Both the position numbers and the translations under genes were made by a program. 64,000 nt of DNA from Halorussus vallis (GTDB lineage Archaea; Halobacteriota; Halobacteria; Halobacteriales; Haladaptataceae): contig NZ_CP100001.1 in assembly GCF_024138165.1 (NCBI RefSeq), positions 310,001-374,000 on the forward strand, read 5' to 3'. The notes beneath the pieces were generated by a model, which was given only the letters and a program-made list of their open reading frames with translations, was not told the origin of the DNA and did no database searches. Positions 25,751 to 43,446 of this stretch are shown here, piece by piece. Positions within the stretch are counted from its first letter, which is position 1; the number at the start of each line of letters is the position of its first letter.

Positions 25751-26518
25751 ATGGGTGAACAACACGGTGGCGGGCGCACGGTGAAATCGGACGGGACTCT
25801 GTTCTCCATCGTCGAACAGCTCCGCGCGTCGGACGGGGCGGGCGTCACCGAACTCGCGAACCGACTCGACGTCGCGAAGAGCACGGTCCACGACCACCTC
25901 TCGACGATACGCGACCGCGGATTCGTCGTCAAGCGCGGGAACGAGTACCACCTCGGTCTGGAGTTCTTCAACTACGGACAGTACGTTCGAAACCAGTTCG
26001 AACTCTACGAGGCCGCCAAACCCATCATCGACGAACTCGCGGAGACGACCGGCGAGATGGTGTGGCTGGTCGTCCACGAGAACGGCCAGGTGATGTACCT
26101 CTACGGCTGTGCCGGCCAGACCGACATCGACGAGAACACCCTCATCGGTTCGTGGGCGTACATGCACAGCAACTCCGCGGGCAAGGCCATCCTGGCACAC
26201 CTCCCCGACGCCGAACTCGAGTACGTCCTCGAACGCCACGGACTCCCCCAGCGGACGCCGAATACCATCACCGACCGCGACGAACTCGAAGCGGAACTCG
26301 AAGCGGTCCGCGAGCGGGGGTACGCGCTCAACCTGGGCGAGGACCTGAAGGGGATCCACGCGGTGAGCGTCCCGCTGTTGTTCGAAGACCGGATTCGCGG
26401 CGCCATCGCGATCGCCGGCCCCGCCCACCGGATGACCCGCGAACGCTGCGAGACGGAACTCATCGAACAACTGTCGGCGCTGACGAACGACATCGAACTG
26501 AGCCTGGCGTACGGGTAA
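25751..26518 (+). CDS. IclR-family transcription regulator
   Basis: 255 residues. ATG 25751 is preceded at about 27 bases by an ATTTTAG box, indicating a leaderless start; an ATG at 25586 in frame would read through the operator and is rejected. The N-terminal winged helix (residues about 15-75, with TELANRLDVAKSTVHDHLST) is followed by the IclR effector domain (about 90-250, with the GSWAYMHSNSAGKAILAHL block). IclR proteins bind small aromatic or organic acids and control catabolic operons, often autoregulated. Here it heads the aromatic island and has two identical palindromes upstream. Confidence 0.93.
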   Translation: MGEQHGGGRTVKSDGTLFSIVEQLRASDGAGVTELANRLDVAKSTVHDHLSTIRDRGFVVKRGNEYHLGLEFFNYGQYVRNQFELYEAAKPIIDELAETTGEMVWLVVHENGQVMYLYGCAGQTDIDENTLIGSWAYMHSNSAGKAILAHLPDAELEYVLERHGLPQRTPNTITDRDELEAELEAVRERGYALNLGEDLKGIHAVSVPLLFEDRIRGAIAIAGPAHRMTRERCETELIEQLSALTNDIELSLAYG

Positions 26519-26632
26519 CGTATCGCACACCCGTTCGTCGAGGCCGAACGACCGGTCCGAACGCGCGTCGGAGCCGGAACGCACCGTCGGTTCGAAAAAC
26601 GCTTTGGCGCTCGCGGACGCAGTCACGCGACG

Positions 26633-27262
26633 ATGATCGAAGAGATCGCACCCGGCGTCTACGACCTGAGCATCGCGAACCACAACGGCGGTCGCTACCG
26701 CACGTTCCTGTTCGACGGCGACGTCCCGACGCTCGTCGACGCGGCGTTCGACGACACGACCGACGTCGTCGCCGAGCGACTCGACGAACTCGGCGTCGCG
26801 CCGGAGCGACTCGTCGTGACGCACGGCGACCCAGACCACGTCGGCGGCCTCGCCGGCCTGGCCGACCGGTACGACCTCGAAACCTGGGTCCCCGAAGGGA
26901 CCGAGGTCGGCGGCGAGTACGCCCCCGACCGCCGGTACGGAGACGGCGACGAGGTCGGCCGGTTCGTCGCGGTCCACACGCCCGGGCACACGTCCGACCA
27001 CCACGTGCTCGTCGACGAGGCGGCCGGCGTCGCGGTGCTCGGCGACGCGGTGTTCGGCGCCGACGCCCGCGGGCTACCCGAGGGGTACTTCGTCCTCCCG
27101 CCCGGCTTCTTCTCCGAGGACGTGAACGAGGCCGACGCGAACCTCAAGCGACTGCTCGACTACGAGTTCGACGTCGGCCTCGTCTACCACGGGTCGAGCG
27201 TCGCGTCGGATGCGAGCGAGAAACTCGAACGATTCGTGGAGTTCGCCGGGAAGCCGAACTGA
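26633..27262 (+). CDS. Metallo-beta-lactamase-fold hydrolase
   Basis: 209 residues with the MBL metal motif in the form THGDPDH (residues 63-69; the second His of HxHxDH is Asp), HTPGH (115-119), GDAVFG (Asp138) and a C-terminal YHG. This variant set is common in archaeal MBL hydrolases that act on thioesters or esters. It lies between the IclR gene and the acyl-CoA synthetase operon, so an acyl-CoA or lactone hydrolase role in the aromatic pathway is plausible but unproved. Confidence 0.88.
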   Translation: MIEEIAPGVYDLSIANHNGGRYRTFLFDGDVPTLVDAAFDDTTDVVAERLDELGVAPERLVVTHGDPDHVGGLAGLADRYDLETWVPEGTEVGGEYAPDRRYGDGDEVGRFVAVHTPGHTSDHHVLVDEAAGVAVLGDAVFGADARGLPEGYFVLPPGFFSEDVNEADANLKRLLDYEFDVGLVYHGSSVASDASEKLERFVEFAGKPN

Positions 27263-27350
27263 CGCCGGTTGCGGAGGGCCGGCCGCGGTCACCCCCGGAA
27301 TAGGCCGACTCGGGGGAAACGTTATGGTCGCGTTCCGAATACCGTGAAGC

Positions 27351-28727
27351 GTGAACGTTGAGCGTCTCTTCAGGCCCGAGAGTATCGCGGTGATCGGGGC
27401 CTCCCAGACAGAAGGGAAGATCGGCTACGAGGCCATGGCCAACGCCGTCGAGTTCGGCGGGCGAGTCTACCCCGTCAACCCGTCGGGGTCGGGGACCGTC
27501 TTCGGAGAAGCGTTCGTCGAATCCGTCGCCGACGTCGACGACCGCGTCGACCTCGCGCTGCTGTGCGTGCCCGCACCGGTCGTCCCGGACGTGCTCGAAG
27601 AGTGCGGCCGGGCCGACGTCGGCGGGGCGGTCATCTACGCCGGCGGGTTCGCCGAGGCCGACGAGGACGGCGAGCGGTTGCAGGCCGAGATAACCGACAT
27701 CGCCGCCCGCCACGACCTCGCCCTCCTGGGGCCGAACACGAGCGGGTTCGTCGTCCCGAGTCGCGACCTGTTCGCCTCCTTCGCTGGCGGCGTCGAGCGG
27801 ATGCCGCCGGGCGACGTCGCCATCGTCGCCCAGAGCGGCGGCGTCGCCCACACCCTCGCCTTCCAGGCGATGCGCGAGGGCCGCGGCGTCTCGGCGATGG
27901 TCGGCCTCGGCAACCGCGCGAACGTCGGCTTCGAGGAGGCCGTCTCGTTCTTCGACGGCGACGAGGAGACGGGAGCCATCGTCCTCCACGTTGAGGGGAC
28001 CGACAGGGGCCGCCAGCTAATGGAGACGTGCCGCGAAGCGACGACCCCGGTCGCGGCATACAAGGTCGGGCAGTCGGACGTCGGCGACTTCGCCGAATCC
28101 CACACCGGCGCGCTGACCGGCGACCACGAACTCTACGAGGCCGGATTCGCCCAGTACGGCGTCCCGACCGTCGACTCGACGCTGGCGCTGTTCGACGCGG
28201 GCGAGGCGCTCGCGAAGTCGCCACCGCCCGCCGGCGGGAACGTCGGCGTCGTCACCGCGCAGGCTGGTCCGGGCATCATCGTCGCCGACCGCGTCCAGCG
28301 CGGCGGCGGAACGCTCCCGGACCTCGGCGAGGAAACCCGCGAGCGGGTCGGCGATATCCTGCCGGGCATCACCTACGCCGGCAACCCCGTCGACACCGGC
28401 CGGCCGATGCCCGAGTTCGGGGAGGTCGTGACGGCGGTCGCCGAGGACGACGCGGTCGACGTGGTGCTTGTCTTCGAACTGTTCGAGGAGGCGCTCGGCT
28501 TCCCGGTCGAGACGCTCGACGGCCTCGCCGACCGGGTCGGCAAGCCGGTGCTGTTCGCCACCGAGGGGCCGGTCGACGCCACCGAGGACGAACTCCGGGC
28601 GCTCAGGGACGCGGGCGTGCCGACGTTCACGTCGCCCGAGCGCGCCGCCGACGCCGCGGCGCTGCTGGCGAGGTTCGCCGACTTCGCTTCGACCGACGGG
28701 AGCGAGGAGGTGAGCGCCGATGTCTGA
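27351..28727 (+). CDS. ADP-forming acyl-CoA synthetase, alpha subunit
   Basis: GTG start, 458 residues. The CoA-binding domain begins FRPESIAVIGAS (residues about 7-18), and the phosphate-carrying His is His251 in AESHTGALTGD, as in archaeal acetyl/aryl-CoA synthetases (ACD). Together with the beta subunit it interconverts acyl-CoA + ADP + Pi and acid + CoA + ATP. The beta gene overlaps its end by eight bases. Set between an MBL hydrolase and a thioesterase in an aromatic island, its substrate is more likely an aryl or dicarboxylic acid than acetate; this is inference. Confidence 0.93.
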   Translation: MNVERLFRPESIAVIGASQTEGKIGYEAMANAVEFGGRVYPVNPSGSGTVFGEAFVESVADVDDRVDLALLCVPAPVVPDVLEECGRADVGGAVIYAGGFAEADEDGERLQAEITDIAARHDLALLGPNTSGFVVPSRDLFASFAGGVERMPPGDVAIVAQSGGVAHTLAFQAMREGRGVSAMVGLGNRANVGFEEAVSFFDGDEETGAIVLHVEGTDRGRQLMETCREATTPVAAYKVGQSDVGDFAESHTGALTGDHELYEAGFAQYGVPTVDSTLALFDAGEALAKSPPPAGGNVGVVTAQAGPGIIVADRVQRGGGTLPDLGEETRERVGDILPGITYAGNPVDTGRPMPEFGEVVTAVAEDDAVDVVLVFELFEEALGFPVETLDGLADRVGKPVLFATEGPVDATEDELRALRDAGVPTFTSPERAADAAALLARFADFASTDGSEEVSADV

Positions 28728-29427
28728 GTCCGACCCTATCGCGGCCGCCCGCGAGGACGGTCGGACGACGCTGACCGAGGCGGAGGCCAAGACGTTGCTA
28801 GCCGACGCGGGCGTCCGAACGCCCGAGTTCGCGGTCGCCGGCGACGCCGAGGCGGCGGCCGACGCCGCCGCCGACCTCGGTTTCCCGGTCGTCGTCAAGG
28901 TTTCCTCGCCCGCGGTCACCCACAAGAGCGAGTGGGCCGACGGCGCGGGCGTCGCCGTCGGCCTCGACTCCCGGGACGCGGTCAGGGAGGCTGCCGAGCG
29001 CATCTTCGAGGCGGCCGCCGACGCGGACATCGACGCCGACGTGCTGGTCGAGGCGGCGCTCGACACCGACGCGGGGACCGAGGTCATCGTCGGCGGACTG
29101 CGGGACGCCTCGTTCGGGCCGGTCGTGCTGGCCGGCCTCGGCGGGGTGTTCACCGAACTGTTCGAGGACACCAGCCATAGACTCGCGCCGGTCGACGAAA
29201 CCGAGGCCCGAGAGGCCATCGAGGAACTGACCGCGGCGCGGCTACTCCGCGGCTACCGCGGGACGCCGCCGGCCGACGTTTCGGCGCTGGCTGGCGTCGT
29301 CGCGACCGTCGGCGACCTCGTCGTCGAGAACGAGGCCGTGGCCGAAATCGACGTGAATCCGGTGCTGGCCACCGCAGAGGGCGCGGTCGCGCTCGACGCG
29401 CTCGTGGTGCTGGAGGAGGAGGCCTGA
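28720..29427 (+). CDS. ADP-forming acyl-CoA synthetase, beta subunit (ATP-grasp)
   Basis: 235 residues with the ATP-grasp pattern of ACD beta chains: LTEAEAKTLLADAGVRTPEF at the start, FPVVVKVSSPAVTHKSEW (residues about 49-66), VEAALDTDAGTEVIVGGLRD and a C-terminal DVNPVLAT nucleotide loop. It carries out phosphotransfer between ADP/ATP and the phospho-His of the alpha subunit. It overlaps the alpha gene and is followed one base later by the thioesterase gene, so all three are one operon. Confidence 0.92.
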   Translation: MSESDPIAAAREDGRTTLTEAEAKTLLADAGVRTPEFAVAGDAEAAADAAADLGFPVVVKVSSPAVTHKSEWADGAGVAVGLDSRDAVREAAERIFEAAADADIDADVLVEAALDTDAGTEVIVGGLRDASFGPVVLAGLGGVFTELFEDTSHRLAPVDETEAREAIEELTAARLLRGYRGTPPADVSALAGVVATVGDLVVENEAVAEIDVNPVLATAEGAVALDALVVLEEEA

Positions 29428-29428
29428 G

Positions 29429-29830
29429 ATGTACGACCGCGTCTGGACCGTCCGGTTCTCGGACACCGACCCGTTCGGCATCGCCCACTACCCGCGCATC
29501 GTCGACGCCCTCCACGAAACCTCGGACATGTTCATGGAGGAGATCGGCTTTCCCTTCTGGGAGCTCTCGGGCGAGCGGGAGTTCGGCCTGCCGCTCGTGG
29601 AGATGAACTTCGAGTTCGAGAAGCCCGTAGAGGCCGGCGACCGCGTCACCGTCGAACTCACGCCGACGCTCGGCGACCGGAGCGTCAGGTTCGACTACGT
29701 CGCCCGCCGCGACGGCGAGGTGGCGTTTTCGGGGTACGAACAGCGGGTCTGCGCCCGGACGGGCGGCGGGGGGTCGATGGAGCTACCCGACGACCTCCGG
29801 ACCGCGATGGCGGCGTACGCCGACGACTAA
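29429..29830 (+). CDS. 4-hydroxybenzoyl-CoA-thioesterase-family hotdog protein
   Basis: 133 residues, single hotdog domain. The signature FSDTDPFGIAHYPR (residues 10-23) carries the catalytic aspartate (Asp14, equivalent to Asp17 of the Pseudomonas 4HBT enzyme). The stop of the synthetase beta gene and this start are one base apart. A thioesterase immediately before gentisate 1,2-dioxygenase is what is expected of a gentisyl-CoA thioesterase in the CoA-dependent 4-hydroxybenzoate route known from Brevibacillus (phgC role). That assignment is inference from context. Confidence 0.88.
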   Translation: MYDRVWTVRFSDTDPFGIAHYPRIVDALHETSDMFMEEIGFPFWELSGEREFGLPLVEMNFEFEKPVEAGDRVTVELTPTLGDRSVRFDYVARRDGEVAFSGYEQRVCARTGGGGSMELPDDLRTAMAAYADD

Positions 29831-29887
29831 CGGCGGAACGCTGACGCGGACGACACGTTTTTGGGACTTCCGGCGCCACGTACGTAC

Positions 29888-30058
29888 ATGGCCGAATTCG
29901 ACAACATCTACGCCGAGGAGAACCCGTTCGTCCGAGCCCACTTCGACTGTCTGAGCTGCGGCGGGAAGCTCTGGGAGTACGCCATCCAGGGCCAGATGGT
30001 GTGCGAGGACTGCCGGGCGGTGTTCCCCTCCGGCGAAGTGTTCGACGCCCAGACGTAG
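29888..30058 (+). CDS. 56-residue zinc-ribbon protein in the gentisate cluster
   Basis: MAEFDNIYAEENPFVRAHFD followed by CLSCGG and CEDCRA: four cysteines in two CxxC knuckles, 15-20 residues apart. The product has no other domain. It sits between the thioesterase and the dioxygenase genes on the same strand, so it is probably part of the pathway as an accessory or regulatory protein. Similar free-standing ribbons are not part of the known gentisate enzymes. Confidence 0.8.
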   Translation: MAEFDNIYAEENPFVRAHFDCLSCGGKLWEYAIQGQMVCEDCRAVFPSGEVFDAQT

Positions 30059-30153
30059 CCGCGGGGACGCCTCCGCAGCGCGACGGTCAGATCGGGTCGA
30101 AGTCGGGGGTTCGAACGGCCGGCACGACGCTTCCGTCGGCGGGTGTCCACTAC

Positions 30154-30160
30154 ACTTATG
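30154..30160 (+). promoter_or_regulatory. TATA-like box before gentisate dioxygenase
   Basis: ACTTATG lies 25-31 bases before the ATG at 30185, the usual distance for an archaeal leaderless transcript. The gene therefore has a promoter of its own inside the cluster. Confidence 0.6.
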
Positions 30161-30184
30161 TTGAACGTGTGCAAACTATTCACT

Positions 30185-31267
30185 ATGGCCCAGCAAGACC
30201 CAGAGGAGCTCTTGGAGTTGAGTTCCGGAACCCGGAGCATCCTCGAGGACCACGGCCTCCGCCCGCTGTGGGAGGTCGAGGACGACTTCGGGAACGTCAT
30301 CGACGACCTCGAACCCGACATCTGGAAGTGGGACGACATCCAGACCGCCATCGACAGCATCGAGGAGGACGTCCCCATCGCCGACCTGCCGCCGGGCTTC
30401 CAGCGCCGAGTGGCGGTCCCCATCAACACCGCCATCGGCAACGCCATCTCGAACACCATCTACGTCGGCGTCCAGACGGTTTCGCCCGGCGAGACGGCGC
30501 CCTCTCACCGACACTCCGCGAACGCCCTCCGGTTTACCATCGACGGCGCCGAGGAGATGAAGACGGTCGTCGCAGGGGAGGAGTTCCCGATGCGGGACAA
30601 CGACCTCATCACGACGCCCCAGTGGGAGTGGCACGACCACGTCAACGACTCGGACAAGACGGCCGCGTGGCTCGACGTGCTCGACCTGCCGCTGTTCCTG
30701 GACTCGCTCAACAAGCGCCAGGCGTTCGAGAATCACGAACTCGAACGCCAGCCGGTCACGAAGACCCAGGGCTACTGGGACTCGCAGTACGGCCGCGGCC
30801 GACCCGCGAACGAGAAGGACGACGGCTCGATTCCGGGGCCGTTCGAGGGCATCCGCGAGGCGACGCCGCCGTACCGCTTCGGCTGGGACGAGATGCTGGA
30901 GTCGCTCCGCCAGCGCGCCGACAACGACGAACCCGACCCCCACGACGGCTACAGTCTGGCGTACGTCAACCCCGCAACGGGCGAAGAACCGCTGTTCCCG
31001 ACGATGTCGTTCCGGGCCCAGTTGCTCCAGGAGGCGACCGACCCGCATTTCCACAACGCGACCGAGGTGTACTTCGTCATCGAGGGCGAGGGCGCGACTC
31101 ACGTCGGCGACGAGGCCCTGGAGTGGGGCAAGTGGGACATCTTCGTGGTGCCGCCGGACGAGGTCCACCACCACGAACCCGACGGCGAGGCCATCCTGCT
31201 CGGCATGACCGACCGCCCCGTGTTCGAGGCGTTCAACTTCTACGCCGAAGCCCAGCCGTCGTCGTAA
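30185..31267 (+). CDS. Gentisate 1,2-dioxygenase
   Basis: 360 residues, the family's length, with a bicupin fold. The N-terminal cupin has the iron-binding pair His108-x-His110 in PSHRHSANALRF, with a further His in WEWHDH. The C-terminal cupin has DPHFHNATEVYFVIEGEG and VPPDEVHHHEP. The enzyme opens gentisate between C1 and C2 to maleylpyruvate using Fe(II) and O2. ATG 30185 is chosen because of the correctly spaced TATA-like box; the frame is open to 30143. It is followed by a palindromic hairpin and a T6 run and converges with the flavin monooxygenase gene. Confidence 0.95.
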   Translation: MAQQDPEELLELSSGTRSILEDHGLRPLWEVEDDFGNVIDDLEPDIWKWDDIQTAIDSIEEDVPIADLPPGFQRRVAVPINTAIGNAISNTIYVGVQTVSPGETAPSHRHSANALRFTIDGAEEMKTVVAGEEFPMRDNDLITTPQWEWHDHVNDSDKTAAWLDVLDLPLFLDSLNKRQAFENHELERQPVTKTQGYWDSQYGRGRPANEKDDGSIPGPFEGIREATPPYRFGWDEMLESLRQRADNDEPDPHDGYSLAYVNPATGEEPLFPTMSFRAQLLQEATDPHFHNATEVYFVIEGEGATHVGDEALEWGKWDIFVVPPDEVHHHEPDGEAILLGMTDRPVFEAFNFYAEAQPSS

Positions 31268-31269
31268 CC

Positions 31270-31316
31270 GGACCGCCCGCGGGCGGTCCTCACGGTCGCG
31301 GCACTCGTCGTTTTTT
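31270..31316 (+). terminator. Hairpin plus T-run after gentisate dioxygenase
   Basis: A perfect 20-base palindrome at 31270-31289 starts two bases after the stop codon, and TTTTTT follows at 31311-31316. In haloarchaea T-runs support termination, so this is the best terminator candidate in the window. Confidence 0.75.
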
Positions 31317-31410
31317 GGCCGGTTCCGCCATTTCTCACGCGAGACGGGTGCAGAAGAAGGAGAGAACGGAAAACGGAGAACGAGAGGGAGTCAGCACCGA
31401 AGCGAAGCGG

Positions 31411-32643
31411 TCAGTACTGACCCACCGACGTCGGCGGACTGCCGTGGGGACCGTAGGGCGCGTCGTCGAGCCACTCGCCGGCGCGTTCGATGTAGTCGGA
31501 CAGTTCGGCGGCGGCGCGCTTTTTCGCCTTGGTCACCGGGCTGTCGCCCTGAAGGTACTCGAGGGCCTGGCCGGCGGCGTCCTTGTTCCACTCGGCCGCC
31601 TGTTCGCGCCGGGCGGCGTACTCCTCGACTTCGGCGCGGGCGACGGAATCGACCCGGGCCTGCCGGGCGACCGTGATGGCCGACGCCGCCGCGACGGCGT
31701 CGGCGATGCCCGAGTTCATTCCGCGTGCGCCGAACGGGGCGAACAGGTGGCCGGCCTCGCCGGCGAGCAGGACCCGCCGGTGGTCGTCGACGAAGGTGTC
31801 GGCGGTGACCTGGAGGAACTGGTAGGTCGACACCCACGTGACGCGGTCGCGGTAGCGCTCGCCGAGCGTGGTGGCGACGAGGTCGGCGACGTTCTCCTCG
31901 CTGGCCATCGCCTCGGGGTCGTCGGACTCCTTGCACTGGATGTCGACGCGCCAACCGCCCTGAAACGGCACGAGCAGCACGTTCCGCCCGTCGACCGCCG
32001 GGTGGTCGTAGTGGAACACCCGCTCCTGGTCGCGGGGGTCGTCGGGGTCCTCCTCGACGTCGGCGATGATGAAGGAGTTCTTCGACTCCTCGCCGTCGAA
32101 CTCCGCGCCGATCTGTTTGCGGACCGTCGACCCCGCGCCGTCGGCGCCGACGACGTGGGAGGCTTCCCACTCCTCGCCGTCCTCGGTCACGACCCGGACG
32201 CCGTCGGCCGACGACTCGACGGTCTCGACCGGCGAGTCCCAGTGGACGTCGACGCCCACGTCCTCCAACGCTTCGAGCATGAAGTCCTCGGTCCACACCT
32301 GCGGGAGGCTGGTGAAGTGGGGGAGGTCGCCGGAGCCGCCGGGGTTGGAGTAGGTCCGGGAGAAGACCTCCTTACCCCGCCAGAGCGTCCGGCGCGTCGA
32401 CCAGATGATACCCTCGTCGGCGAGCCGCTTGCCCAGTCCGGGGTGGTTCTGCTCCAGAGTCTGGAGCGTCGCCCCGTGGACGAAGATGGCGCGACTGCCG
32501 GGGCGTTCTCGGTCCTGGGGGTCGGCTTCGAGGATGGTGACCGGGACGCCGCGAGCCTGCAGGGCGAGCGCGGCGGTCATTCCCGTCGGGCCTGCGCCGG
32601 CGACGATGACAGGAGCCTCGCTGCTACCGTTATCAGAACTCAT
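31411..32643 (-). CDS. Group A flavin monooxygenase (aromatic hydroxylase)
   Basis: 410 residues. The N-terminal FAD motif is VAGAGPTGMTAALALQARG (residues about 14-32), the second contact is GADGAGSTVRK (about 165-175), and the third is GEAGHLFAPFGARGMNSGIA (about 295-314): the three marks of NADH-dependent flavoprotein hydroxylases such as 3-hydroxybenzoate 6-hydroxylase and 4-hydroxybenzoyl-CoA 1-hydroxylase. It converges with the gentisate dioxygenase gene and diverges from an aldehyde dehydrogenase gene. With a CoA ligase and thioesterase in the same cluster, it is a strong candidate for the hydroxylase that forms gentisate or gentisyl-CoA. Confidence 0.93.
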   Translation of the reverse strand: MSSDNGSSEAPVIVAGAGPTGMTAALALQARGVPVTILEADPQDRERPGSRAIFVHGATLQTLEQNHPGLGKRLADEGIIWSTRRTLWRGKEVFSRTYSNPGGSGDLPHFTSLPQVWTEDFMLEALEDVGVDVHWDSPVETVESSADGVRVVTEDGEEWEASHVVGADGAGSTVRKQIGAEFDGEESKNSFIIADVEEDPDDPRDQERVFHYDHPAVDGRNVLLVPFQGGWRVDIQCKESDDPEAMASEENVADLVATTLGERYRDRVTWVSTYQFLQVTADTFVDDHRRVLLAGEAGHLFAPFGARGMNSGIADAVAAASAITVARQARVDSVARAEVEEYAARREQAAEWNKDAAGQALEYLQGDSPVTKAKKRAAAELSDYIERAGEWLDDAPYGPHGSPPTSVGQY

Positions 32644-32803
32644 TCTACTCTGAACGACGAGTTCGGGGTATTAGTTATTTTCCTTGCGAGGACCACGCAC
32701 GCGCCACACCGAATCGGCCCGGCGTCGGGGATGTCGGGCGGAGCGCGGCGACTTCACCTAAGAAACGCTAGGTTTGATAAGGTATACCACCCATCGTGAC
32801 GCT
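32644..32803. promoter_or_regulatory. Divergent promoter region, hydroxylase versus ALDH
   Basis: A minus-strand TATA-like run (32669-32680) is correctly placed for the monooxygenase start at 32643, and a plus-strand TTTGATAAGG (32773-32782) for the aldehyde dehydrogenase at 32804. Both look leaderless. No long inverted repeat is present. Confidence 0.6.
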
Positions 32804-34285
32804 ATGGCGCAAGAAGCGAGCGCACGATTCGACACGGACGGCGACTGGGAGCGACTCTTCGTCGGCGGCGAGTGGCGGCGAGCACCCGACAACGACCGAA
32901 TTCACGTCGAGAACCCCGCGACGAGGGAGCGAATCGCGTCGGTGCCGAAGGCGTCGGCCGCCGACGTCGACGAGGCCTACGCGGCCGCCCGCGAGGCCCA
33001 ACCCGAGTGGGCGGCCCAGCCGCCGCAGGTGCGGGCGGAAGTCGTCCAGAAGGCGATGGGCGTCGTCGAGGAGCACCAGGAGGACCTCGAAGGCGTCCTG
33101 GTTGCCGAGGGCGGGAGCACCCTGACGAAGGCCCACGTCGAACTCGACCTGCTCGCGCCCGGGATGATGGCCGAGGCCGCGACCTTCCCGACACGGGCGC
33201 AGGGCACTCACGCCAACTCGACCATCCCGGGCCGCGAGAACGAGATTCACCGCGAACCGGTCGGCGTAGTCGGGGTCATCTCGCCGTGGAACGTCCCGTT
33301 CCACCTCTCGATGCGGGCGGTCGCGCCCGCCGTCGCGCTCGGCAACGCCGTGGTGCTCAAACCCGCACCCGAGACGCCCATCGCCGGCGGTCTGGCGCTC
33401 GCCCGGGTGTTCGAGGCGGCCGGCCTTCCCCCGGGCGTCCTCAACGTCGTCCCGGGCAACGGCGCCGAAACCGGCGAGGCGGTCGCCTCCCATCCCGACG
33501 CGAACGTCGTCTCGTTCACCGGGTCGACGGAGGTGGGCAAGCGCGTGGCGCAGAACGCGGTCGAGAACCTCGCGCTACCGGCGCTGGAACTCGGGGGCAA
33601 CAACCCGCAACTCGTCCTGGCGGACGCCGACCTCGACCTCGCGGTCGACGCGGGCGTCTTCGGGTCGTTCTTCCACCAGGGCCAGATCTGCATCTCCATC
33701 AACCGCCACCTGGTCCACGAGTCGCTGTACGACGAGTACGTCGAGCGCCTCGCCGACCGCGCCGAGGCGCTGACGGTCGGCGACCCCGCGAAAGGCTCCG
33801 ACGTTGGCCCCGTCATCAACGAGTCTCAGCGCGACGAGATGCTCCGGTTCGTCGAAGAGAGCGTCGAGGCGGGCGCTCGCGTCGTCGCGGGCGGCGACAG
33901 CGACGACCTGTTCGTCGAGCCGACGGTGCTCGCCGACGCGACCAACGACATGCCCGTCGCGCGCAACGAGCACTTCGGCCACATCGCGCCGGTCATCCCG
34001 TTCTCGGACGACGAGGAGGCGGTCGAACTCGCCAACGACACCGACTACGGCCTCACCGCGTCGGTCATCTCCGCCGACCTCGACCGGGCGAAGCGAGTCG
34101 CCGGCCGCGTCGAGGCCGGAATGGTCCACGTCAACGACCAGCCCATCAACGACGAACCTCACGTCCCGTTCGGCGGCGTGAAGGGGTCGGGGCTGGGCCG
34201 CTACAACGGCGAGGCCATCATGCGGGAGTTCACCGAGGAGCGGTGGGTGTCGCTCCAGCACGACCGCCGGGAGTATCCGCTCTGA
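32804..34285 (+). CDS. Aldehyde dehydrogenase, copy 2
   Basis: 493 residues with SPWNVPFHLSMRAVAPAVAL (residues 160-179), FTGSTEVGKR (238-247), Glu262 in ELGGNN and Cys296 in GQICISINRHLVHE. Extensive similarity to the copy at 12549-14039 shows they are paralogues. The relatives oxidise benzaldehyde- or vanillin-type aldehydes. It is divergent from the hydroxylase and followed 110 bases later by the FAH gene, so it likely supplies an aromatic acid to the pathway. Confidence 0.94.
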   Translation: MAQEASARFDTDGDWERLFVGGEWRRAPDNDRIHVENPATRERIASVPKASAADVDEAYAAAREAQPEWAAQPPQVRAEVVQKAMGVVEEHQEDLEGVLVAEGGSTLTKAHVELDLLAPGMMAEAATFPTRAQGTHANSTIPGRENEIHREPVGVVGVISPWNVPFHLSMRAVAPAVALGNAVVLKPAPETPIAGGLALARVFEAAGLPPGVLNVVPGNGAETGEAVASHPDANVVSFTGSTEVGKRVAQNAVENLALPALELGGNNPQLVLADADLDLAVDAGVFGSFFHQGQICISINRHLVHESLYDEYVERLADRAEALTVGDPAKGSDVGPVINESQRDEMLRFVEESVEAGARVVAGGDSDDLFVEPTVLADATNDMPVARNEHFGHIAPVIPFSDDEEAVELANDTDYGLTASVISADLDRAKRVAGRVEAGMVHVNDQPINDEPHVPFGGVKGSGLGRYNGEAIMREFTEERWVSLQHDRREYPL

Positions 34286-34395
34286 GGGGCCGACTCGACG
34301 GGAAGGGCCGGGGCGTCGAACCGCGGAACCCGGCCCGGACCGCCGCCGTCGCCCGAACGCCATCCTTTATGTGTGCGCTGTGCGCATATGTCGGT

Positions 34396-35274
34396 ATGCG
34401 ATTCGTCCACTACGACGAGGACCGCCTGGGACTGCTGACCGACGACGGGACGGGCGTCGTCGACCTGACCGACCGCCTCGGCATCGACTCCTCGGACCCG
34501 CTGCGCGAGTACATCCGCGGCGACTACGACGCCAGCGAGTACGAGGACGCCGAACCCGACCACGACCGCGGCGACGTCGAACTCAAATCGCCGGTCCAGC
34601 GGCCGGGGAAGGTCATCGCCGCGCCGCTCAACTACGAGAACCACATCGAGGAGGCGCTGTCGGACCGCGACATCACCACCGAGGAGTGGTTCACCATCGA
34701 GGACAAGGGCTACTTCCTCAAGGCGCCGTCGAGCGTCGTCGGGCCGGACCACGGCATCGAACTGCCGTTCTCGGACCGCCGGACCGACCACGAGATCGAA
34801 CTAGCGTTCGTGATGGGCGACGACGTGAAGGACGTCTCCGCCGAGGAGGCCTGGGACCACATCTTCGGCTACACCGTCCTGCTCGACATCTCGGTCCGGG
34901 GCGACCAGGACCGCTCGAACCGCAAGTCCTACGACACGTTCACGGTCATCGGCCCGTGCGTGGCGACTCCCGACGAGGTCGGCGACCCCCAGGACCTCGA
35001 GATGGAACTCCAGTTGAACGGCGAAACCCGCCAGCAGGAGAACACCGGCGACATGGTGTACACCTGCGCCGACGTCGTCCAGTACGCCTCCATCGGCGCG
35101 ACGCTCGAAGCCGGCGACGTCATCACCACCGGGACGCCCGAGGGCGTGAGCGCGCTCTCCGACGGCGACACCGTCGACGCAGCGATCGAGAACGTCGGCT
35201 CGATGACCGTCGACGTCCGAGAGCGCGACGTCCGGTTCGAGGACGTCGACGTCCAGAAGGGCGGCCAGGACTGA
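34396..35274 (+). CDS. FAH-family hydrolase (fumaryl- or maleylpyruvate hydrolase candidate)
   Basis: 292 residues, with the FAH metal ligands Glu133-x-Glu135 in DHEIELAF and an Asp near 164 in VLLDISVRGDQD. A TTTATG box about 30 bases before ATG 34396 supports this start; in-frame ATGs lie upstream at 34369 and 34387. In gentisate pathways this family cleaves fumarylpyruvate to fumarate and pyruvate after isomerisation of maleylpyruvate. No maleylpyruvate isomerase is visible in the window, so it may cleave maleylpyruvate directly. It is convergent with the E1 genes. Confidence 0.92.
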   Translation: MRFVHYDEDRLGLLTDDGTGVVDLTDRLGIDSSDPLREYIRGDYDASEYEDAEPDHDRGDVELKSPVQRPGKVIAAPLNYENHIEEALSDRDITTEEWFTIEDKGYFLKAPSSVVGPDHGIELPFSDRRTDHEIELAFVMGDDVKDVSAEEAWDHIFGYTVLLDISVRGDQDRSNRKSYDTFTVIGPCVATPDEVGDPQDLEMELQLNGETRQQENTGDMVYTCADVVQYASIGATLEAGDVITTGTPEGVSALSDGDTVDAAIENVGSMTVDVRERDVRFEDVDVQKGGQD

Positions 35275-40684: not shown

Positions 40685-40787
40685 GTTTCCCCAATCCCGG
40701 ACCGGGGTTAAATAAGTTGACGTGCGGGAGAATCGACGCGCCGACGAACCCAGCACTTTATGTGACACGTGTTCTCTGTACCCACGT

Positions 40788-42314
40788 ATGCTCTTTCCGC
40801 AACTGTTCAGGCAGTCGGCGGCCCGGACGCCGGAGAAGGCGGCGGTCGTGGACCTCGGCTCGGAGCGGGAGTTCACCTACCGCGAACTCGCCGAGCGGGT
40901 GTACGCGCTCGCGAACGGCCTGCGCGAACACGGCGTCGAACGCGGGGACCGGGTCGCCGTCTGCATGGGCAACCGGCCCGAGAACGTGATGACGTTCCTG
41001 GCGACCCAGTTCGTCGGCGTCGTCGCCGTCCCGTTCAACTTCCGAGTGGCGGCCGACGGGGTGACCTACCACGTCCGGGACTCCGGCGCCGACCTCCTGC
41101 TCTACGACGCCCTCTCGAGGGACGCGGTGGAGGCGGCGGCCGACTCGCTCGACTGCGACCTGTGTTACGTCGGCGACGACACGTCGGCCGAGGCGATTCC
41201 GTTCGACGCGCTGCTCGACGCGCCCGCCGACGAACCGGAGATCGACGCGACCAGCGAGGACGCGAGCGTCGTCCTCTACAGTTCGGGGACCACCGGCGAC
41301 CCGAAGGGCATTCCGCTCGACCACCGCGCGACCACCGCGCGAGCGCTCATCAACGCCATGGGCCAGCGCTACTACCTCGGCGAGACGATAATCGGCGTCA
41401 TGCCGCTGTACCACACCGTGGGGCTCCACGGCGTCCTCTGCGACGCCCTCGGCGTCTCGGGCACCTACCTCTGTATGCCGGATTTCGACCCCGAGACGTG
41501 CGTCCGCGCCATTCCCGAGTGGGGCGTCACCGCGCTCCACGAGGCGCCGACGATATTCAGCCAGTACCTCGGCACCGACGCCATCGACGAGGTCGACGTG
41601 AGCAGCGTCCGGGCGGTGGGCTACTCGGGCGCGCCGATGAGTTCGGACCTCTTCGACCGGGTGGTCGAGACGTTCGACCCCGACCACATCGCGAACCTCT
41701 ACGGCACCACGGAGGCGTACGGCACGACTGCGTACGTGGGCCTGGGGCCGGACGACGACCCGTCGACGACCGGCCCCGCCAACGTCTTCTACGAGACCCG
41801 AATCGTCGACGTCGACGGCGACCCTGACGACGAGGTCGAAGCGGGCCAAGAGGGCGAACTCATCGTCAACACCGACTCGCCGGTCGCGTTCGACGGCTAC
41901 CTCAACAAGCCCGAGCGGACCGCCGAGGTCATCCGCGACGGCTGGTTCTTCACCGGCGACGCGGCCTACGAGAACGACGACGGCAACATCGTCATCACGG
42001 GGCGGGCCGACGACATGCTCATCAGCGGCGGCGAGAACATCCACCCGGCCAACGTCGAGGACGTCCTGGCCTCGCACCCGAAGATTCGAGACGTGGGCGT
42101 CGTCGGCGTCGCGGACGAGGAGTGGGGCGAAATCGTGAAGGCGTTCGTCGTCGCCGACGACGGACTGACGGTCGAGGAACTCGAGGAGTGGTGTCTCGAC
42201 AACGACGGTCTCGCGAACTTCAAGCGCCCCCGCGAGTACGAGTTCCTGGAGGAACTCCCGCGCAACCCCAGCGGGAAGATAATGCGCTACAAGCTACGGA
42301 GCGAAGAGGAGTAG
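40788..42314 (+). CDS. AMP-forming acyl-CoA ligase with canonical motifs
   Basis: 508 residues of the ANL superfamily. A3 is YSSGTTGDPKGI, A5 is LYGTTEAYG, A7/A8 is DGWFFTGDAAYENDDGN with RADDMLISGGENIHP, and A10 is PRNPSGKIMR with the catalytic Lys. It activates a carboxylic acid with ATP and CoA. It is divergent from the transducer gene and convergent with the diiron-protein operon. Aromatic acids such as 4-hydroxybenzoate or benzoate are plausible substrates from context. ATG 40788 has a CTTTATG box about 30 bases upstream. Confidence 0.94.
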   Translation: MLFPQLFRQSAARTPEKAAVVDLGSEREFTYRELAERVYALANGLREHGVERGDRVAVCMGNRPENVMTFLATQFVGVVAVPFNFRVAADGVTYHVRDSGADLLLYDALSRDAVEAAADSLDCDLCYVGDDTSAEAIPFDALLDAPADEPEIDATSEDASVVLYSSGTTGDPKGIPLDHRATTARALINAMGQRYYLGETIIGVMPLYHTVGLHGVLCDALGVSGTYLCMPDFDPETCVRAIPEWGVTALHEAPTIFSQYLGTDAIDEVDVSSVRAVGYSGAPMSSDLFDRVVETFDPDHIANLYGTTEAYGTTAYVGLGPDDDPSTTGPANVFYETRIVDVDGDPDDEVEAGQEGELIVNTDSPVAFDGYLNKPERTAEVIRDGWFFTGDAAYENDDGNIVITGRADDMLISGGENIHPANVEDVLASHPKIRDVGVVGVADEEWGEIVKAFVVADDGLTVEELEEWCLDNDGLANFKRPREYEFLEELPRNPSGKIMRYKLRSEEE

Positions 42315-42386: not shown

Positions 42387-42674
42387 TCAGTCGAGGACGC
42401 GAATCTCGGGGTCCCAGCTTCCCAGTTCCCAGCGGTCGCCGTAGCGTCGCTCGACCACGTGGAACTCGGTCGCCATCGTCGAGAGGTACCGGACGTTGAT
42501 TCGGCAGTCCGTGATGACCTCCTCGCCGTCGCGGGTCTCGGTGTCGAACTCGACGACGCCGAGGTCGGCGAGTTTCGCCAGGCCGAGCGCCGACTGCTCG
42601 TCGATGCCGGTGAGTTCGACCGCGGGCGGATTCTCGGGGTCGACGTAGACGTACTCCGACGGGTCGTCGGCCAT
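42387..42674 (-). CDS. 95-residue partner of the diiron protein
   Basis: MADDPSEYVYVDPENPPAVE then a short acidic alpha/beta domain ending DRWELGSWDPEIRVLD. The start ATG lies one base after the stop of the diiron gene, so translation is almost certainly coupled. No family is recognised. Its size resembles accessory subunits of multicomponent diiron oxygenases (PaaB is about 95 residues), but I see no sequence resemblance to PaaB. Function unknown. Confidence 0.85.
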   Translation of the reverse strand: MADDPSEYVYVDPENPPAVELTGIDEQSALGLAKLADLGVVEFDTETRDGEEVITDCRINVRYLSTMATEFHVVERRYGDRWELGSWDPEIRVLD

Positions 42675-42675
42675 G

Positions 42676-43353
42676 TCAGTGGACCACCTCGGGGTCGTAC
42701 TCCAGCCCGTAGATGTCGTACATCGCCTCGATGGCCGCGCTGTTGGCCTCGTCGGCCCGGCGCTGGACCTCCTCGTCGTCCGCGAACCGCAGGATTATCT
42801 TCCGCCCGACGTTGAGGTGGTTTGGCTCGTCCAGGTCGGCGGAGTGGAGCACCTCCTTGGTCCGGTCGTCGACGACGTCGTGGTCGACGAGCGCCTGGAA
42901 GATGATCGGGACGAATCGCTCGATGCCCATCTGCTGGCAGGCCGCCAGGCTCACCAGGTCGTCGTGGTCGTACACCCGGTGGAACATCTCGACCTGGGCT
43001 TCGGTGGGCGTGTAGTCGCGGATGTCGGGGTTGCCGCCCAGTTCCTCGATGCGGTTCGAGAACAGCTTTGCGTGCTTGAGTTCGTCGCGGGCCATGTTCG
43101 CGAGTTCGATGACGATGTCGATGTCCCGACTCACGTCCCGGTCGTTGCGCTCGTACACCTCGTTCATCTGCTTGGCCGGCGGGTAGGTGCCGAAGTAAAA
43201 CTCGTTCCACATGAACGACCTGAGCATCCCCACGAGTTGCTCGCCCTCGACCCGCGAGTCGTCGTCGTACATCCGGTCGACGAGGTGTTTGGCCGCCCGT
43301 TCGGACTTTCGGCCCAGCCGCTTCGCGAACTGGTCGCTATCTAGTGCCGCCAT
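42676..43353 (-). CDS. Ferritin-like diiron protein, oxygenase candidate
   Basis: 225 residues, all-helical. The complete carboxylate-bridged diiron set is visible: Glu51 (MWNEFYFG), Glu91-x2-His94 (DELKHAK), Glu145 (MGIERF) and Glu176-x2-His179 (DEPNHLNVG). This spacing is that of the R2-like/PaaA/PaaC/MiaE group rather than of storage ferritin. At 225 residues it is shorter than PaaA or BoxB. ATG 43353 lies 27 bases after an ATATATG box (43378-43385), so it is leaderless. Gene order (diiron protein, 95-residue partner, convergent CoA ligase) suggests an oxygenase acting on an aryl-CoA or free aromatic acid; the reaction is not known. Confidence 0.88.
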   Translation of the reverse strand: MAALDSDQFAKRLGRKSERAAKHLVDRMYDDDSRVEGEQLVGMLRSFMWNEFYFGTYPPAKQMNEVYERNDRDVSRDIDIVIELANMARDELKHAKLFSNRIEELGGNPDIRDYTPTEAQVEMFHRVYDHDDLVSLAACQQMGIERFVPIIFQALVDHDVVDDRTKEVLHSADLDEPNHLNVGRKIILRFADDEEVQRRADEANSAAIEAMYDIYGLEYDPEVVH

Positions 43354-43397
43354 GAACTATCGTGTGGTTGCTGTTCACATATATCTTCCCCACGGGT

Positions 43398-43446
43398 CGA
43401 GCGAAATTCGGCCGACGCGGCGACCGCGTCGGCCGAATTTCGCTCG
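43398..43446. terminator. 49-base near-perfect palindrome
   Basis: Two perfect 23-base arms (43398-43420 and 43424-43446) around a CGA loop. It follows the stop of the SLC13-type permease gene by 29 bases and precedes the diiron promoter. It is the longest-armed hairpin seen in the window. Confidence 0.75.

Follow-up and report, generated by a model that had tools for sequence, protein, structure and literature searches.

Diiron oxygenases that are known to require a separate small protein, among them the multicomponent monooxygenases and the phenylacetyl-CoA epoxidase, are large complexes equipped with electron-transfer chains of their own. In the bacterial multicomponent monooxygenases, the effector protein is required for catalysis (PMC4200526). 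Our analysis concerns a much plainer arrangement, two adjoining genes of Halorussus vallis whose products comprise 225 and 95 residues. They lie in a stretch of 64,000 nucleotides (assembly GCF_024138165.1, contig NZ_CP100001.1, positions 310,001-374,000 of the forward strand), called the window in the following and providing all coordinates that carry no other label. An earlier note on this DNA had read the pair as a possible minimal two-component diiron oxygenase of a kind not yet described. Both open reading frames are found where that note had placed them, and the features of the locus are as follows.

42676 to 43353, minus strand: gene of the diiron protein, 225 residues; open reading frame with invariant ligands, an AlphaFold2 model and fold matches
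42387 to 42674, minus strand: gene of the small partner protein, 95 residues; open reading frame adjoining the stop codon of the diiron gene, with conserved pairing and co-occurrence
43378 to 43384, minus strand: TATA-like box ATATATG; read from the sequence and proposed from known haloarchaeal promoter spacing
40788 to 42314, plus strand: AMP-binding acyl-CoA synthetase; PF00501 at E = 1e-71, and synteny
43399 to 43445, no strand assigned: perfect inverted repeat with 22-base arms and a 3-base loop; read from the sequence

A single base separates the stop codon of the diiron gene from the start codon of the small gene (TGA-C-ATG). The centre of the ATATATG box is situated about 27 bases upstream of the ATG of the diiron gene, a position that would fit a leaderless haloarchaeal transcript of both genes; hence, the two genes probably possess a short transcript of their own. 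The acyl-CoA synthetase gene, for which an alternative start exists at 40722, is convergent with the pair. The inverted repeat, whose arm occurs only once within the window, sits between the end of a DASS-type transporter gene, just after its stop codon, and the promoter of the pair, and the transcript of this upstream transporter probably has its 3' end there.

The larger protein displays the ligand set Glu51, Glu91/His94, Glu145 and Glu176/His179 at exactly the positions read from the single sequence, and these six residues are invariant in an alignment of all 14 diiron-protein sequences, although identity between clades falls to 20-25%. Further invariant positions include W49, G55, P59, D79, L84, D90 and K93 and, in the C-terminal half, D175, G183, R189 and E202. 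Two DExxH motifs can thereby be recognized, D90-E91-x-K93-H94 (DExKH) and D175-E176-x-x-H179; this is the form present in O2-activating diiron hydroxylases. AlphaFold2, supplied with the 14 sequences, predicts with high confidence a helical bundle (pLDDT 93.3, pTM 0.88) in which the six ligands are distributed over four helices (37-69, 78-104, 133-157 and 176-190). Their order along these predicted helices, Glu, ExxH, Glu, ExxH, is the pattern of the ferritin-like diiron-carboxylate superfamily. Sequence and model together thus support the presence of a diiron-type site in the 225-residue protein. Sites of the ferritin-like kind also occur in peroxidases and Mn/Fe proteins.

Neither protein reaches the cut-off of any Pfam or NCBIfam model, so that the statement in the earlier note that the 95-residue protein belongs to no recognized family was right at these thresholds. 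The profile of the diiron family retrieves R2-like/R2lox-type proteins from the PDB at E-values of 3e-5 to 3e-4. In comparisons of the predicted fold, the best match is CADD (Z 18.9, rmsd 2.8 over 197 residues), and TenA proteins, MiaE, aldehyde deformylating oxygenase and N-oxygenases (HrmI) fall within Z 15-19. CADD and TenA are the top matches and ferritin-like proteins follow at a Z of about 16; since helical bundles score high in general, we take these matches only as a sign of membership in the diiron bundle superfamily. PaaA and MmoH were not among the best 50 fold matches, an observation to which we give no weight.

At each of the 14 loci, in all 13 genomes concerned, the diiron gene has a relative of the small gene as its neighbour, and the 95-residue gene is hence an obligate companion of the diiron gene. 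The earlier note had named a small gene not conserved in this position as a refutation of its reading, and these loci and genomes do not refute it. At 10 loci the small gene lies downstream on the same strand with a spacing of -4 to +3 bases, and at the other four (L016, L017, L018 and L025), which form one clade, it is inverted, tail to tail, at a distance of 23-127 bases. That the pairing has outlived this inversion argues against a mere transcriptional accident and against shared transcription as its only basis. A profile of the small family, applied to the same 392 genomes in which the diiron gene was sought, recovered clear members (E below 1e-20) in these 13 genomes and in no others; four weak matches (E 0.005-0.009) are at chance level for this number of genomes. 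Because most of the sequences that it finds, at E 1e-20 to 1e-33, had themselves gone into the profile, co-location and co-occurrence constitute the independent evidence. The open reading frame itself is real, as the earlier note had assumed: the ortholog that accompanies the diiron gene of the nearest relative (71% identity) shows about 60% identity to it. Distances within the one family closely parallel those within the other (matrix comparison, r = 0.94; 0 of 5000 permutations), which, together with the co-occurrence, speaks for co-inheritance as a unit and is not evidence of binding.

Within the small protein, E75 and W82 are invariant and C57 is nearly so. Structure prediction gives, with modest confidence (pLDDT 71), a core of helix-strand-strand-helix, for which the search against solved structures returned nothing but short, unpersuasive matches to parts of winged-helix regulators (best E 0.5), which we did not use. 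It is thus by analogy that we regard this protein as a candidate effector or second subunit of the diiron protein. The description of the diiron protein as standing alone without reductase or effector held for recognized proteins of these kinds, and has to be amended in that the small protein itself is the best candidate for such an effector or subunit.

The 392 genomes represent the order Halobacteriales sensu lato, with the Marine Group IV archaea included, and the diiron gene is present in 13 of them. Its 14 loci are spread over several haloarchaeal families, with Natrarchaeobius chitinivorans and Salinigranum salinum among the hosts, and over Marine Group IV archaea. The closest relative is 71% identical (L006/L015), and identity is 20-40% for the others. 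Salinigranum salinum possesses two separate pairs; these diverged copies (L026:7977-8915 and L025:7995-9063), one of them directly followed by a Liv-type ABC ATPase gene, suggest two substrates in one organism. A single-sequence search of 17 other genomes of the genus to which the window belongs detected no relative of the diiron protein.

In a wider range of organisms, a pattern scan of genome contigs based on a single sequence returned nothing, since peptide patterns derived from one sequence are too strict, and an alignment-based pattern scan that covered about 85,000 species genomes detected eight loci, all of them archaeal. As its hits were confirmed with the window protein, bacterial members of great divergence could have been lost at this step. 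Plasmids, searched with three divergent queries, and IMG/VR yielded no match. Matches outside the window in a phylum-wide profile search were partial (about 20-29 bits) and were treated as other ferritin-like proteins. That the pair is restricted to archaea is thus a provisional statement, bacteria having been covered by plasmids and this one pattern-based scan of species genomes.

The earlier note had called the neighbouring gene an aromatic-type CoA ligase. It turns out to encode a generic AMP-binding acyl-CoA synthetase whose score does not reach the cut-off for any of the NCBIfam models listed. Its 73% ortholog is found beside the pair in L015, the locus of the nearest relative; as the ligase has been retained there while the remaining neighbourhood differs, ligase and pair form a conserved unit of this clade. 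Across the family, CoA ligases adjoin the pair at four of the 14 loci, and the other ten have none nearby. The window also encodes two more ligases and a branched-chain-type ABC transporter. Aromatic genes of the gentisate type are located 8-17 kb from the pair. This latter cluster (25751-35274) comprises an IclR-type regulator (by eye), parts of acyl-CoA synthetases, a 4HBT thioesterase, a gentisate-dioxygenase-like double cupin, an FAD hydroxylase and an FAA hydrolase, and has the look of an archaeal gentisate pathway that proceeds through CoA-linked steps. Elsewhere in the window, amid transporter and ligase genes, a methionine-synthase-like protein (PF01717; 49037-50122) is encoded whose score remains far under all equivalog cut-offs.

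In the window, the pair has neither a reductase nor a ferredoxin gene linked to it. L021 and L022 are the only loci with a linked 2Fe-2S ferredoxin and a Rieske-like gene (the latter recognized by eye). There, a CoA ligase gene follows the small gene by 63 bases on the same strand, its product being closest to 2,3-dihydroxybenzoate-AMP ligase at a score below the cut-off; a divergent SDR gene adjoins the pair, and a UbiD-type decarboxylase is encoded nearby. The same SDR (about 50% identical) stands beside the pair at the Marine Group IV loci, accompanied by an ornithine-cyclodeaminase-like gene. The neighbours in L016 and L025 are an M29-like protein, a Liv-type transporter and an acyl-CoA dehydrogenase, with a Mo-hydroxylase in addition in L016; those in L017 and L018 are Mo-hydroxylases, an SDR and VOC genes. 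Amidases are found in L020, and nitrilases and an arylmalonate decarboxylase-like gene in L019. Judged from their gene content, the neighbourhoods are catabolic at most loci, and a single substrate or reaction would not fit them all.

Two features of these neighbourhoods deserve mention in their own right. At L025:4876-5865 and L016:3848-4840, M29-peptidase-like proteins are encoded adjacent to both the diiron pair and Liv transporters; their Pfam family also holds 2,5-dihydroxypyridine dioxygenases, which makes an N-heterocycle pathway conceivable at these two loci. Furthermore, only the clade with the inverted small gene encodes, directly upstream of the diiron protein, a protein of 139-140 residues without a Pfam family (L025:7504-7923, L016:1779-2201 and L017:8955-9377). 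Three specific pathways were considered and dropped because none reached a family cut-off: a nicotinate-like one (M29-like and Mo-hydroxylase genes of L016 and L025), an ectoine-like one (the EutA/arylmalonate decarboxylase-like gene of L019) and a vitamin B6-like one (the SDR of L021 and L023).

We consider it probable that the pair constitutes a compact two-protein diiron oxygenase in which the small protein is an obligatory subunit or effector, the substrate differs by clade and electrons are drawn from a general ferredoxin. The 225-residue helical bundle would hold two metal ions, probably iron, through four glutamates and two histidines. Two electrons from a general cellular ferredoxin might reduce the diiron protein, which would then activate O2 and oxidize a small catabolic substrate. 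The 95-residue protein would bind to the bundle and complete or gate its active site, acting like the effector of a multicomponent monooxygenase or like PaaB, although it is unrelated to either. For the window, the substrate would probably be an organic acid or its CoA thioester furnished by the adjacent ligase, and the other clades of the family would use other substrates. Given the nature of the site, the relatives in fold, hosts that are aerobic and a catabolic context, we hold oxygenase activity to be the most plausible function. Of the proposal that this is an undescribed minimal two-component diiron oxygenase, the diiron-type site, the position of the family outside recognized ones and the obligate partner gene have stood; the oxygenase activity and the complex of the two proteins are what we infer.

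The earlier note had named aryl-CoA esters as compounds to try with the pair, and an oxygenase specific for such compounds, an analogue of PaaA/BoxB, could explain why an AMP-ligase gene has been kept beside the pair in the window and in L015, why a gene resembling 2,3-dihydroxybenzoate-AMP ligase lies downstream of it in L021 and L022, and why gentisate-type genes are found at some distance in the window. However, the ligase is generic, and the ten loci lacking one nearby carry amidase, nitrilase, Mo-hydroxylase and M29-like genes, which suggest N-containing or hydroxylated substrates, or SDR and ornithine-cyclodeaminase-like genes. Comparison by hhalign with single sequences from E. coli, moreover, yields a probability of 0.2% for the diiron protein against PaaA and 0.1% for the small protein against PaaB. 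With CoA ligases at so few loci, we view an aryl-CoA substrate as possible for the window's own clade and as unlikely to be common to the whole family, and we likewise hold a pair specific for aryl-CoA esters to be an unlikely explanation.

A ferritin-like protein without oxygenase activity, serving in rubrerythrin-like peroxide scavenging, iron storage or metal sensing and modulated by its small companion, is an improbable alternative. Several members of the family obtain weak rubrerythrin and ferritin scores (best values 0.003 and 0.001), and most loci have no dedicated electron donor, as would befit such a protein. Yet the window protein remains below all family cut-offs (rubrerythrin, PF02915, 18.0 bits against 22.8) and contains no match to a rubredoxin domain, its fold is highly similar to that of oxygenases, and a presence in so few genomes, amid shifting catabolic neighbourhoods, is unlike that of a general stress or storage protein. 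Still farther from our expectation, and in our judgement very improbable, is a MiaE-like hydroxylase that modifies RNA or protein. The fold of MiaE is matched at a Z of about 16, but the weak MiaE_2 score (PF13794) of 15.1 bits lies under the cut-off of 25.2, and the sporadically distributed genes are linked to transporters and catabolic genes, not to tRNA or modification genes. A role as a storage or tRNA-modifying protein, named in the earlier note as what would overturn its reading, is thus disfavoured by context and by family scores.

We found no description of such a pair in the literature, in a search that reached few subscription papers. It is a tentative possibility, for which the chances seem to us somewhat less than even, that the pair represents an undescribed class of two-component diiron oxygenases, in which a hydroxylase of about 25 kDa and an effector of about 10 kDa from a new family would operate without a dedicated reductase on catabolic substrates specific to each clade, exclusively in halophilic and Marine Group IV archaea. 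If this is true, hydroxylase and partner, together about 320 residues, would offer a minimal model for the control of O2 activation by a small protein, and gene clusters of haloarchaea and of Marine Group IV would gain an enzymatic step that they lack at present. Since the pairing is obligate, two genes would suffice for a direct test of the need for such a small protein.

Among the known systems, cyanobacterial aldehyde deformylating oxygenase is the best single-sequence family match of the diiron protein (residues 83-212); the fold is similar (Z of about 16 over 170-186 residues) and so is the spacing of the later ligands. The scores, however, fall short of the cut-offs (TIGR04059, 19.7 bits against 222.65; PF11266, 18.8 against 28), the genomic context differs, and we know of no small partner for this family. 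The heme-oxygenase-like diiron oxidases (CADD, UndA, BesC and HrmI) are of similar size and provide, with CADD, the highest fold similarity, at only 14% identity. Their ligand set contains HxxxDxxH-type ligands on the third helix and three histidines in all. Position 172, seven residues before His179 and aligned to that third-helix histidine, is never a histidine in the 14 members, and these oxidases are therefore not the home family of the diiron protein. For AurF-type N-oxygenases (PF11583), the window protein gives no match, and three of 10 relatives give weak ones (best E 6e-4).

PaaA/PaaB resembles the pair in combining a diiron subunit with a small subunit of 95 residues and, at some loci, in the CoA ligase nearby; it differs in that PaaC and PaaE have no counterpart beside the pair. 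In E. coli PaaA, the sequence QDEAGH is locally aligned to a DExxH motif at the site (a weak local alignment only), and no Pfam match to PaaA, PaaC or PaaB was obtained at E<=1. The bacterial multicomponent monooxygenases likewise carry twin DExxH motifs, and the diiron protein has less than half the size of their hydroxylase alpha subunit. Their beta subunit, ferredoxin and reductase are without counterpart beside the pair, and no member of the small family matched the MmoB/DmpM effector family (PF02406) in Pfam at E<=1. Given this lack of homology to PaaA, PaaB and MmoB/DmpM, the likeness to both systems is a functional one only; with the multicomponent monooxygenases, the pair would share, in outline, an obligatory small protein encoded separately from the diiron subunit.
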